From a virus, in the IMG/VR virus record IMGVR_UViG_3300036857_000265, positions 1 to 40,230 of that record: 40,230 nt of DNA; one strand, written 5' to 3'. The position numbers and the translations under genes are program-made. The notes under the pieces are model-generated. The model did not search any database and had not been told where the DNA came from. It saw only the letters and a program-made list of their open reading frames with translations. This document shows, in pieces, positions 2,140 to 5,267 of this stretch (positions are counted from its first letter, which is position 1; the number at the start of each line of letters is the position of its first letter).

Positions 2140-2422
2140 TCCAGGGATTGTAGGAATACGGATTGTACCACTGGCGGGTACCCCCATAACTCCAGTCGTT
2201 GTAACTCTGGCAGCCAAAGGCACAAATAGGTTGAGTCCTGGGTGAGTCGCAGAACGCGCAGAGCGGAGCTGGAGTCGCACTCCCGCAGAAAGCACACAGG
2301 TCACCGCCATAGTTTTGTTGGGCGTAAGCGGAGGTCAGGCCGATGGCCTGATCCCCCCACGGGCTGGGGACCACCAGTTGACACGCCAGTACCAAAGCTG
2401 CTAGAATAATACTGAACCGCAT
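2096..2422 (-). CDS. Exported Cys-rich small protein (possible lysogenic-conversion gene)
   Basis: 108 residues from ATG 2422, preceded by AAAGGAG on its own strand. A hydrophobic N-terminus (about 5-20) is followed by a Ser-Ala-Tyr-Ala site near 31-34, so export is likely. LVLAC at 10-14 is an imperfect lipobox, so a lipoprotein is an alternative. The mature part repeats a CAFC-type motif three times (CAFCGS, CAFCDS, CAFGC) about 15 residues apart, then becomes Trp/Tyr/Asn/Pro-rich. Function unknown. A lone exported gene transcribed against int is a typical position for a lysogenically expressed cargo gene. Confidence 0.6.
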   Translation of the reverse strand: MRFSIILAALVLACQLVVPSPWGDQAIGLTSAYAQQNYGGDLCAFCGSATPAPLCAFCDSPRTQPICAFGCQSYNDWSYGGTRQWYNPYSYNPWTSCPPSLEWWRRSC

Positions 2423-2469
2423 TGGACACTCCTTTCAGCGAGTGGTACCAGTATAACACAAGGAGAGAA

Positions 2470-2667
2470 ATGTCACGTCGGCAGATACGGCCCCAACCTG
2501 GGGCCTGGGTGAAACGGAGTCAGGTCGCGGATCGGTGTCCCGCCTGCGGGCGGGTGGAAGTGCTCACTGGCACCGATCTTCAGAAGCTCGCCAAGGAAAC
2601 CCTGGCCGCCATCGCGGCCCACGACAAGGAGTGTCGTGAGAGGGATAGATTTGCATTAACGGCGTGA
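2470..2667 (+). CDS. Small zinc-finger-like protein, 65 aa
   Basis: Starts at ATG 2470 with AAGGAGA just upstream; an in-frame TTG at 2422 has no ribosome site. The protein is basic at the N-terminus (MSRRQIRP) and has a CPAC pair followed about 30 residues later by HDKEC, a plausible C-C-H-C zinc site. It is probably a nucleic-acid-binding or adaptor protein; there is no specific family call. First gene of the rightward accessory cluster. Confidence 0.6.
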   Translation: MSRRQIRPQPGAWVKRSQVADRCPACGRVEVLTGTDLQKLAKETLAAIAAHDKECRERDRFALTA

Positions 2668-2779
2668 AGGTACAATCTACCAGGCGGGGTCAAAACAGGG
2701 GCCTCCCTGTGAACTGGCTGAGAACAAAATACCCCAATAGATTTGCATAATTTGGGAGACCGAGGAAAGGGGTTACAGG

Positions 2780-2929
2780 ATGTTCTGTCCGAACTGTGGA
2801 GAACAGAGTCAGGAACAGTGGCCCCCTGAAGATGATGACAGGGAGGATGGGGATTTGCCTGAACCTGCGGAGTACCGCTGTCTGCTGTGTGGTCAAACCT
2901 GGTATGATGAGTCCATCTATCAGCGATGA
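2780..2929 (+). CDS. Zinc-ribbon micro-protein, 49 aa
   Basis: The ORF begins ATG TTC TGT at 2780 with AGGAAAGG at 2763-2770 (9-nt spacing). It encodes MFCPNCGE at the N-terminus and CLLCGQTW near the C-terminus, separated by a strongly acidic stretch (EDDDREDGD). Two CxxC pairs in 49 residues make a minimal zinc ribbon. It is the last gene before the long non-coding region. Confidence 0.6.
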   Translation: MFCPNCGEQSQEQWPPEDDDREDGDLPEPAEYRCLLCGQTWYDESIYQR

Positions 2930-3003
2930 TAGGTGCGGTTCTGAAACTAGGCTCTATGATTGGGGGACTATAGGGGGATTATATATGATATATAAACTGG
3001 GTG

Positions 3004-3023
3004 ATCCCTCTGTTAAGAGGGAT
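3004..3023 (+). terminator. Hairpin after the zinc-ribbon gene
   Basis: ATCCCTC / GAGGGAT, 7-bp arms with a 6-nt loop. No T-run follows, so it may act together with the stronger hairpin 30 bp downstream. Confidence 0.35.
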
Positions 3024-3052
3024 TAGTATATAGTCATATACAATACCCCCTG

Positions 3053-3080
3053 CCCCCTTGAAAATTCAAGGGGGCTTTCA
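3053..3080 (+). terminator. Strong intrinsic terminator-like hairpin
   Basis: CCCCCTTGAA / TTCAAGGGGG, perfect 10-bp arms with a 2-bp centre, followed by CTTTCAT. The T-tract is short. It closes the rightward unit ending at 2929. Confidence 0.6.
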
Positions 3081-3319
3081 TCGTGTCACGAGAACCTTGT
3101 ATATTCTTTGAGGAATCCATGACACAACCTGGTCAAAGACTCTTGGTTCTAAAAAATTTACAGGGATAAGCGGTGCTCGTGCCTCGCCCATCGCCTGGCC
3201 TACAGAGTAGTATGGGCACTTTATATACGGGATACACACTTTGCTGATAATAAAAGACTTTATACATAGATGCACTAGCCTTAAGGCATTACTGCACCGT
3301 AATAGCCTATCTTGCGGGG

Positions 3320-3342
3320 TCATAGCACCTTAGGTGCTATGA
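3320..3342. promoter_or_regulatory. 23-bp odd palindrome (operator-like)
   Basis: TCATAGCACCT, a central T, then the exact reverse complement AGGTGCTATGA: 11-bp arms without mismatch. No T-run follows on either strand and the loop is too small for a terminator. A dimeric repressor or recombinase site is the best reading. Confidence 0.45.
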
Positions 3343-3455
3343 TCGGACCCTTAGGATTATGCGGGTACCCGTATGTACTACTGTATCCCTGTTACACTGA
3401 ATGGCCCAGCTTGTTGACAAGAGATAGTGGAATGTGGTACTCCAGAGCATTAGCA

Positions 3456-3468
3456 TATCCTACTTGTG
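3456..3468 (+). repeat. Direct repeat copy 1 (TATCCTACTTGTG)
   Basis: A 13-bp word identical to 3758-3770, and preceded in both places by related AGAG..TTAGC-like sequence. With several other TATCC words in the region it may be an iteron or arm-type binding site. Confidence 0.45.
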
Positions 3469-3705
3469 CATAGTGCCCAAACCCTATCCTGTTTATCCCT
3501 TATCTACCAATCCAGCATAGTTGGTGCCAAGCAATCCGATAGCCGCAGTCTAGCCAACAATAGTACCAGTCACTTTATATATTCCCCCACAGGTATAACA
3601 TCCCCCAGCTAGCCCGAGCATCCCAACTTGACAGAAGTTTGCAAACCCAGGATTTTCGTTCATTTCCATTGCTCGGAAGAAACGGCGTTCATCTTTCGGT
3701 CAGAT

Positions 3706-3727
3706 TTTCTCCACAATTTCTCCACAA
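3706..3727 (+). repeat. Tandem TTTCTCCACAA repeat (DnaA-box-like)
   Basis: Two exact head-to-tail 11-bp copies. Each contains TTCTCCACA, one base from the DnaA box TTATCCACA. Two tandem near-boxes in a non-coding AT-richer stretch are compatible with an origin, but chance cannot be excluded by eye. Confidence 0.4.
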
Positions 3728-3757
3728 TTTAGCCTAGAGTGCTTAGCGTATTAGGAG

Positions 3758-3770
3758 TATCCTACTTGTG
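3758..3770 (+). repeat. Direct repeat copy 2 (TATCCTACTTGTG)
   Basis: Identical to 3456-3468. This copy sits just 8 bp before the ATG of the next gene and includes the end of an AGGAG-containing stretch, so it could also affect translation. Confidence 0.45.
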
Positions 3771-3777
3771 ACGGTTG

Positions 3778-4011
3778 ATGACGAACCGCCCAGGGCTGAG
3801 CATGCCCAGAAAGGATACTGCCGTGGTGACTCATTTTCACATTGCCTACCCGCGGACCACGCGGCTAGTCATGCCCGCGAAGCGTTGGGCCTATGACACC
3901 CGTTCCGCTGCTGAGCAGCGCGTTGAGCGCATCCGAGCCTACTCCCCTGGATATGACGCCGCCATCGTGGAGCGGAAGGGCAGCTTACTAGACTGCCACT
4001 GTCGGAACTAG
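3778..4011 (+). CDS. Hypothetical basic protein, about 77 aa, ending at a ribozyme
   Basis: The coding-like part is the C-terminal two thirds, including KRWAYDTRSAAEQRVERIRA and a final CHC pair. The start is uncertain: ATG 3778 has its AGGAG about 20 nt upstream, while in-frame ATG 3805 has only a weak AGGG. No family recognised. Its stop codon TAG ends at 4011, and G4011 is the first base of the hammerhead's stem I, so self-cleavage would cut this mRNA about 50 nt after the stop. Confidence 0.5.
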   Translation: MTNRPGLSMPRKDTAVVTHFHIAYPRTTRLVMPAKRWAYDTRSAAEQRVERIRAYSPGYDAAIVERKGSLLDCHCRN

Positions 4012-4066
4012 TCCGCCTGATGAGCCGTGACGCGGCGAAACTAGGCCCACTGGCCTAGTCGCGGAC
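4011..4066 (+). ncRNA. Type I hammerhead self-cleaving ribozyme
   Basis: All conserved parts are present and in order. Stem I: GTCCGC (4011-4016) with GCGGAC (4061-4066), 6 bp, open-ended, hence type I. Core: CTGATGA (4017-4023). Stem II: GCCG (4024-4027) with CGGC (4033-4036), loop TGACG. Core: GAA(A) (4037-4040). Stem III: A4040 to C4047 with G4052 to T4059, 8 bp, loop CACT. The cleavage nucleotide is C4060, preceded by the required T (U16.1) that pairs with A4040 (A15.1). Predicted cleavage lies between 4060 and 4061. The first base overlaps the stop codon of the upstream gene. Every helix is perfectly paired, so chance occurrence is unlikely. Confidence 0.88.
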
Positions 4067-4104
4067 CTTTAACAACTGAACAAGACTCCCCCCACGTAAT
4101 GCGG

Positions 4105-4325
4105 GCCGACCAGGCCAACGGTCGAACAATGACCAATGGTGCGAGCAGTGGTCCTGCCACAAGGCAGGGTGCGATAGGATTATAACCTGTCGCCAGAACT
4201 ACTCAAAACGCTACGGCGCGATTGGGGCCAAACATCCAAGGGGAGTCCTTGGCAGCTACACTGCCTACGGGCCGTTGGGAACGTCGTTCCCAAGGTCTCT
4301 AAACTGCTAACAACGACTAGTACCG
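4105..4325 (+). ncRNA. Structured RNA with group I-intron-like pairing order
   Basis: The gene-free stretch 4067-4341 folds densely. Local hairpins: CCTGCC/GGCAGG (about 4153-4168), GCGATAGG/CCTGTCGC (about 4171-4193), CCAAGG/CCTTGG (about 4235-4251) and TTGGGAAC/GTTCCCAA (about 4274-4292). Longer pairings follow the group I core order: GCAGTG (4145-4150) with CACTGC (4259-4264) as P4, the TTGGGAAC hairpin as P6, then CGACTA (4314-4319), which resembles the R element and pairs with TAGTCG at 4911-4916, as P7. GTACC (4320-4324) can pair with GGTAC (4905-4909). P1, P3 and the A-rich J8/7 are not convincing, so the group I assignment is tentative; the presence of structured RNA is firmer. Confidence 0.35.
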
Positions 4326-4341
4326 AAAAGGATGGGCTTTT

Positions 4342-4545
4342 ATGCCTAAGCAGCATAAAAACGGTACTACCCACAGGAAAGGTTCCGCTAGAAACTCCGA
4401 ATCCATCAGGCTTGAGTGGTGCCTACTGTTCAGTAGCCTGGTACTGGGCGAAACACTTCTTCCCTTCATCAAGGCCACACTGGCAGGACTCCTAACCCAC
4501 ATCGGCGCACACGACGCCGCACTACTTGTGATGGGGCTACAGTAA
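4342..4545 (+). CDS. Small membrane-associated protein, 67 aa
   Basis: ATG 4342 with AAGGAT 8-9 nt upstream. The first 24 residues are basic and polar; residues about 26-58 are hydrophobic (LLFSSLVLGETLLPF and onward), enough for one or two membrane passes. It overlaps the HNH gene through TAATG, so the two form an operon located inside the predicted P8 loop. No known family. Confidence 0.5.
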   Translation: MPKQHKNGTTHRKGSARNSESIRLEWCLLFSSLVLGETLLPFIKATLAGLLTHIGAHDAALLVMGLQ

Positions 4546-4901
4546 TGTGTAAGTGGTGCTGTTCGCGTGGGGTCAAACCTGATCGCAACGGCCGTTGCTG
4601 GCATACTAAGCGCCGTAGCATGGAACAAAACGCCCGCCAAACTGGAAACTACAAACTGACCAGGGTCGCAATGGCCGCCCGATGGGAACTGTACGACCGC
4701 TGCTGCTATGTGTGCGGTCAAGACCTGCGCTCAGTCATCAAAGGCGAAAAAGCGAGCGATCATGTAAAACCTGTTAGTGCAGGCGGCAAGAACTATGCCT
4801 GCAACTTCCGTCCCATCTGTAGGTGGTGTAACGACGACAAGAACGGCAAGTCCTGGCGGTTGTACGTCAGGTCGTTCTCTGGGCGGCTTCCGCTGCCTTA
4901 G
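4545..4901 (+). CDS. HNH endonuclease (homing-type)
   Basis: 118 residues. Residues 2-20 form a possible zinc site (CKWCC then RCWH). The HNH fold spans about 45-103: CxxC at 54-57, catalytic DH at 72-73 (ASDHVKPVSAGG), N87, and the second CxxC pair CRWCN at 92-96 followed by DDKNGK. This is the zinc-stabilised HNH of free-standing or intron-borne phage nucleases, which nick or cut DNA to spread themselves. It lies between the two halves of the predicted group I-like P7 pairing, as expected for an intron-encoded homing enzyme; a free-standing HNH is the alternative. Confidence 0.85.
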   Translation: MCKWCCSRGVKPDRNGRCWHTKRRSMEQNARQTGNYKLTRVAMAARWELYDRCCYVCGQDLRSVIKGEKASDHVKPVSAGGKNYACNFRPICRWCNDDKNGKSWRLYVRSFSGRLPLP

Positions 4902-4904
4902 TCT

Positions 4905-4916
4905 GGTACGTAGTCG
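4905..4916 (+). ncRNA. 3' partner of the group I-like core (S-like element)
   Basis: GGTAC (4905-4909), a single G, then TAGTCG (4911-4916). Together they are the reverse complement of CGACTAGTACC at 4314-4324 with one bulged base. They lie 4 bp after the HNH stop codon. In a group I intron this would close P7 (and P8) around the endonuclease ORFs. Confidence 0.3.
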
Positions 4917-4932
4917 CATGGGAGTTAGTATC

Positions 4933-5061
4933 ATGGCCAAGCGTCCTGTGGTCTTAGATGTCGTGAACCGTGATGGCTACCAGGTTGTCTACCTGAGCAA
5001 CGGTCGGGTGGTGTACTCCCCCGAGAACCGCTATCGCGTGGGGTCAAGGGTTAAGGAATGA
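4933..5061 (+). CDS. Hypothetical 42-aa protein
   Basis: ATG 4933 follows GGGAG by 8 nt. The product begins MAKRPVVLDV and is a small beta-rich basic protein (repeated VVY). Its stop TGA overlaps the next ATG at 5058. Family unknown. Confidence 0.5.
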   Translation: MAKRPVVLDVVNRDGYQVVYLSNGRVVYSPENRYRVGSRVKE

Positions 5062-5267
5062 CTGAACTAGACGAGTTCAAAACCGCCCTTGCAGATGCCT
5101 GCAAGAGCGACCCGTTCCTAGAGTGGTACCTAACGCCGCACCAAGGAGAGCACAGCTATGGCATTGCTACCACCACAACCCAACGTGACCCCTACCAACT
5201 ACCACATAGCGAAAGTCAGCACCCTGCACGCCATATCCCGCCTGCTAGCACATATCGCAGACGATGA
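5058..5267 (+). CDS. Hypothetical protein with an abnormal C-terminal tail
   Basis: ATG 5058 overlaps the previous stop (ATGA). The first 35 residues (MTELDEFKTALADACKSD onward, then FLEWYL) look like normal coding sequence. From about residue 36 the composition becomes Thr/Pro/His/Arg-rich because the frame runs on into the start of the next gene, overlapping it by 110 nt. Probably a real gene whose original stop has been lost, or a frameshifted remnant. Confidence 0.4.
   Translation: MTELDEFKTALADACKSDPFLEWYLTPHQGEHSYGIATTTTQRDPYQLPHSESQHPARHIPPASTYRRR

Follow-up and report, generated by a model that had tools for sequence, protein, structure and literature searches.

What does a hammerhead ribozyme (HHR) do at the end of a small phage gene, when its first stem starts on the stop codon itself? 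What bacterial and phage hammerheads are for has been a standing question since 2011, and the locus described here allows it to be asked of a single ribozyme and of a large group of relatives. The ribozyme lies in what we call the window, that is, the whole stretch of 40,230 nucleotides that was analysed (positions 1 to 40,230 of the IMG/VR virus record IMGVR_UViG_3300036857_000265).

The ribozyme and its surroundings

The element at 4011-4066 is a complete, intact type I HHR (Table 1). Its stem I is open and its stems II and III are closed, which is the type I order, and sequence and descriptor alike give the type I core (CUGANGA, GAA, A15.1-U16.1 and H17); no core base and none of the 18 stem pairs is disrupted, in sequence or in fold. 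The minimum free energy (MFE) fold of RNA 4005-4072 is exactly the hammerhead structure (-29.4 kcal/mol, z = -4.4, with none of 200 shuffles as stable). Sequence and identical fold together bear out the first-pass annotation of this DNA, which had described a complete type I HHR with stems of 6, 4 and 8 bp. It was also correct in placing the HHR on the coding strand, where it is predicted to part upstream from downstream RNA, and in starting stem I on the last base of a stop codon: G4011 closes the TAG at 4009-4011 and opens stem I. The position of the cut is assigned from hammerhead numbering, which we take to be established. A second copy of GCGGAC, upstream at 3852, was considered as a switch for stem I and rejected, being unused in the computed folds.

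Table 1. Features of the ribozyme and its neighbourhood in the window
Feature	Position	Strand	Basis or remark
Upstream small ORF, 62 aa	3823-4011	+	GTG start; ribosome-binding site AAAGGA 7 nt before it; ends in TAG
TAG stop codon	4009-4011	+	A4010 and G4011 are conserved ribozyme positions -7 and -6
Type I hammerhead ribozyme	4011-4066	+	Sequence, fold, descriptor, R1 covariance model
Stem I 5' strand GTCCGC	4011-4016	+	Pairs with 4061-4066; sequence, fold, R1 model
Catalytic core CTGATGA (C3-A9)	4017-4023	+	Sequence
Stem II hairpin GCCG-TGACG-CGGC	4024-4036	+	Strands 4024-4027/4033-4036; 4 bp and a possible U-G
Core GAA (G12-A14)	4037-4039	+	Sequence
Stem III hairpin ACTAGGCC-CACT-GGCCTAGT	4040-4059	+	Strands 4040-4047/4052-4059; 8 bp, closed by A15.1-U16.1
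C17	4060	+	Sequence
Predicted cleavage site, after C17	4060/4061	+	Hammerhead numbering
Stem I 3' strand GCGGAC	4061-4066	+	6 bp with 4011-4016; sequence, fold, R1 model
Non-coding leader, 281 nt	4061-4341	+	Predicted 5'-OH start after cleavage; several stable hairpins
Next ORF, 67 aa	4342-4545	+	No family match
HNH / endonuclease VII-like gene, 118 aa	4545-4901	+	Start overlaps preceding stop (TAATG)

The frame that ends at this TAG is open from 3775, with GTG 3823 as its likely start, and the G+C content of the upstream ORF is 0.71 at third codon positions against 0.63 and 0.52 at positions 1 and 2, as in other genes of the window. We found no family match and no relative for its 62-aa product. 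Farther upstream lies a phage integrase (1051-2139), and after the integrase module some 750 nt (3030-3770) pass without a convincing gene before the first early ORF. The terminase is distantly like those of actinobacterial phages; searching with it brought up, at 100% identity, a single contig from this same phage, which ends short of the HHR site.

Downstream of the predicted cut, the leader at 4061-4341 has no convincing ORF, no Rfam match and no similar DNA in phages or plasmids. The first-pass annotation had called the downstream RNA densely folded; its predicted structure has a stability only moderately above that of shuffles (z = -3.0), and neither an Rfam family nor a relative supports it. 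A group I intron was considered for the leader and rejected, the region 2140-5100 having no Rfam match besides the hammerhead. The HNH gene beyond is recognised by Pfam (HNH_5, 9e-7; HNH, 7e-6) and PHROG (HNH, 6e-11) models and has distant relatives among the HNH / endonuclease VII genes of Mycobacterium, Gordonia and Synechococcus phages. The start of ORF 4342 falls inside a possible hairpin at 4319-4372 (TAGTACCG/CGGTACTA enclosing TTTTATGC/GCATAAAA), which may limit translation of that ORF.

Detection and relatives among phage hammerheads

Our strict descriptor tolerates short stems (from 4/3/3 bp upwards). It picks out a single site in the window, and 16.1 Mb of first-order Markov sequence matched in dinucleotide composition yields no hit. 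The standard library behaves differently. Rfam 15 at its gathering thresholds has no match in the window; at relaxed E-values it gives Hammerhead_3 (RF00008) at 25.7 bits, against a cut-off of 48.5, in a wrong register, where the start of stem III is paired with sequence preceding stem I. Hammerhead_1 (RF00163) has no match over the whole record, a null result that is uninformative because none of the control genomes passed its cut-off either. The window HHR has the catalytic core and three-stem fold common to both families while scoring below both cut-offs, and a gathering score is a detection threshold, not a defining feature of an HHR.

We therefore turn to relatives in IMG/VR, which was scanned with a pattern limited to the core and part of stem II and neutral between types I and III; two general scans yielded at least 120 contigs. 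From the core pattern alone, a complete HHR was present at 224 of 234 loci (among the matches listed), and the HHRs so listed, the window's included, number 381 (304 of type I and 77 of type III). A covariance model, R1, was built from 45 other phage type I HHRs with the window excluded, and it matches the window once, at 4008-4069 (48.1 bits, E = 1.1e-9). In the R1 alignment 98.5% of cells are paired and 14 of 16 pairs have two-sided changes, covariation that is supportive only, as the rows were picked by a descriptor that demands pairing. At E <= 0.001, R1 identifies 49 HHRs in 12 loci, and Rfam 15 at its cut-off recovers one of them; because it misses the other 48, the absence of an Rfam hit is of little weight for phage hammerheads. 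The first-pass annotation had proposed that the lack of an above-threshold Infernal hit to the Rfam models would count against the ribozyme. Such a hit is indeed lacking, and the yardstick itself is invalid for ribozymes that the library so regularly passes over. It follows that annotation of phage genomes with the standard RNA library overlooks almost all ribozymes of this kind.

Phage type I HHRs are conserved beyond the core: the foot of stem I has A-7 and G-6 on one side and C+6, A+7 and A+8 on the other, and loop II follows a five-base consensus (U-N-R-N-N); the combination A-7 G-6 ... C+6 A+7 occurs in 86 of the 102 HHRs that have the UNRNN loop. We infer that these conserved positions probably take part in a tertiary contact. 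The window HHR agrees with the phage consensus in loop II (UGACG), A4010 (-7), G4011 (-6) and C4066 (+6), and has C4067 and U4068 in place of A+7 and A+8, so that the tertiary contact between stem I and loop II, and hence the speed of cleavage in the cell, is uncertain for it. An identical stem II, with a near-identical loop (TGATG, or UGAUG in the RNA), is present in five other phage contigs, where AA follows stem I and the scores are 66-72 bits. Judged by sequence, the window HHR is a somewhat divergent member of the phage type I group.

Placement relative to stop and start codons

We evaluated placement on 245 distinct type I HHRs with enough flank from IMG/VR phage contigs (among the matches listed), counting an HHR as stop-linked if an ORF of at least 60 codons on the same strand had a stop codon starting between -12 and +1 relative to core base C3, and repeating the count after displacing the positions by 60-3000 nt within their contigs (200 trials). 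Among these matches a stop codon lies in the range for 139 of 245 HHRs, compared with a shifted mean of 7.3 and maximum of 15; a ribosome-binding site and start codon follow 12-60 nt past the cut for 124 (26.6 shifted), at a median distance from cut to start of 26 nt; and both occur together for 80 (1.2 shifted). The sample derives from two stem II patterns, its contigs are not all independent, and gene calling was simple.

The stops are unevenly distributed along the ribozyme. The core's own TGA at +1 serves in 36 cases, a class that is possibly inflated, given that an open frame running into the core must stop at UGA; TAA or TGA at -3, on the last three bases of stem I, accounts for 21, and TAA at -5 or -4 for 5, making 62 of 139 inside the ribozyme. 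A further 61 begin at -9 to -7, at the foot of stem I, where a TAG at -8 uses the conserved A-7 and G-6. The -3 and -9 to -7 classes are free of the core-UGA bias. The TAG of the window, at -8, thus falls within the stop range and in one of its commonest classes. Its next ORF starts beyond the 12-60 nt range; a start at that distance is a tendency of the group rather than a requirement. Pseudomonas phage PaP3 conforms as well: its single R1 match (E = 6.8e-6) has stem I directly after the annotated stop of orf67 (44113-44115, offset -9), on the minus strand between orf67 and orf66 (44032-44115). An HHR from an intergenic region of PaP3 was tested and listed as active by Perreault et al. (2011, PMC3088659), and the two are presumably the same ribozyme.

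The arrangement that the first-pass annotation regarded as possibly undescribed hence turns out to be the usual one for type I HHRs in uncultured phages, and its recurrence suggests that phages use HHRs to cut long messages into single-gene pieces. Several records carry many R1 matches (up to 13 in G003, 11 in G002 and 9 in G019), and in loci L003, L121, L012 and L081 many HHRs stand at successive gene boundaries on the coding strand; with L002, these loci and records have 5-13 hammerheads per record. The window holds one, neither descriptor nor R1 finding a second in the 40.2 kb record (which may be incomplete), and so differs from the arrays of two or more of the Perreault 2011 type. In bacterial genomes, 22 contigs from many phyla have the same core with a variant stem II; the descriptor recognises a complete HHR in 13 of these, and just one of the 13 is stop-linked; because this small sample did not reproduce the rule, we regard it as a result for phage contigs. 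We found no description of a stop-codon rule for phage type I HHRs in the openly accessible papers covered, and the main text of Perreault et al. (PMC3088659) leaves stop codons aside and describes gene flanking only generally. An HHR that begins at or contains a stop, with a start a median of 26 nt past the cut, makes the idea of mRNA separation directly testable.

Proposed role and competing explanations

We consider it probable (about 0.72) that the element is a self-cleaving type I HHR acting as a gene-boundary RNA processing site of an early polycistronic phage transcript. The RNA would fold as transcription passes and then cut itself between 4060 and 4061; the upstream product would end just past the stop codon, with the stem II and III hairpins and a 2',3'-cyclic phosphate, and the downstream product would begin as a 5'-OH leader and continue into the operon of ORF 4342 and HNH. 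The likely benefit would be separate fates, in stability and translation, for the two messages. There is precedent in prophages: Perreault et al. (2011, PMC3088659) report HHRs that flank single genes and cut long transcripts in vitro, in one instance also in E. coli, and propose a role in mRNA processing. The sequence and structure of the HHR, its membership of a widespread phage group and the stop-to-start statistics are direct observations; we infer that the window RNA cuts itself, also during infection, and that this affects the fate of the mRNA. Some features of the window sit less well with this role: cleavage is a prediction, of uncertain speed where A+7 and A+8 are lacking; the HHR is alone, and the next ORF lies 281 nt past the cut instead of the usual 26. 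Local folds reaching 4400 keep the ribozyme (stem I pairing 0.85-0.91), and in transcript folds extended to 4600 pairing by 4381-4417 displaces stem I. In the folding models this displacement would require RNA made more than 300 nt later, well after a cut could have occurred.

The missing A+7 and A+8 outside stem I might also mark a decayed, inactive hammerhead retained as sequence only, which we hold to be improbable for an element whose core and 18 stem pairs, including eight perfect pairs in stem III, are whole. A tentative alternative, though still an unlikely one, is that the HHR serves mainly to stabilise RNA ends, the upstream product being protected by its hairpin and cyclic phosphate and the downstream 5'-OH being poorly read by decay of the RNase E/RppH type. 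The stem III hairpin of a type I HHR falls 1 nt from the new 3' end, and phage HHRs are largely of type I (304 of 381 among the matches listed) under a core pattern unbiased between types I and III; the 77 type III HHRs among those matches, however, leave other ends, and stabilisation overlaps with gene-boundary processing instead of excluding it. We give very little credence to a mobile unit of ribozyme, structured RNA and HNH homing endonuclease, intron-like or as circular RNA. The HNH gene does start 484 nt past the cut with a structured leader between, but it is the second ORF there, the leader matches no group I or II intron or other Rfam family, and the lone ribozyme has no partner in the window. 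Searches with the HNH protein, the upstream ORF and the DNA, in phages and plasmids, found neither a relative of the locus nor another copy of the region. The genes after phage HHRs are mixed and mostly without known family, and because none of 107 matches an HNH family of Pfam the HNH neighbour looks incidental, which leaves the link between ribozyme and HNH gene drawn by the first-pass annotation without support.

The positions of the stops raise another alternative, in which translation gates the ribozyme. It is conceivable, if doubtful, that stem I and the core lie under the ribosome that terminates at UAG 4009-4011; just as doubtful is the corollary that the ribozyme folds and cuts only when no ribosome is finishing the upstream ORF, so that cleavage would both report on and respond to translation. 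Stops at set ribozyme positions (62 of 139 inside and 61 more at -9 to -7, among the matches listed) are consistent with gating, as is a UAG class built from the ribozyme's own conserved A-7 and G-6. From stops built into conserved ribozyme bases (UAG at -8, UAA at -3 and the core UGA) one might go on to propose a general translation-gated mRNA cutter at many boundaries, which we likewise think unlikely. Tightly packed phage genes would place a compact intergenic element at such sites anyway, an effect that the shift control cannot separate, and 43% of the HHRs (among the matches listed) are not stop-linked. Processing at the gene boundary is the reading that we retain as best supported.

Among described systems, the phage and prophage HHRs of Perreault et al. 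(2011), such as those of PaP3 and the triple array of Agrobacterium, are the same ribozyme and likewise lie between phage genes, whereas the window has a lone HHR followed by a leader of 281 nt. The HHphage of haloviruses HF1 and HF2 immediately precedes a virus early gene, 13 nt from its start (PMC3088659); its core carries insertions, whereas that of the window is standard. The HDV-like theta ribozymes of gut phages (Kienbeck et al. 2024, PMC10879173) are also phage-encoded, self-cleaving and located at a gene boundary, but they belong to another ribozyme class and are tied to tRNA genes, not mRNA boundaries. Neither descriptor nor R1 finds a match in Bcep176, one of the phages of the 2011 paper; a variant core is the probable reason. 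Type III hammerheads occur in other phages (L001:3110-3190, L005, and three in a row in L031), the records of L001 and L031 having no match to the type I model. Finally, Acetobacter sicerae and A. estunensis (L244 and L257) share a near-identical type I-like hammerhead with a stem I of 8-9 bp and a stem III of 10 bp.
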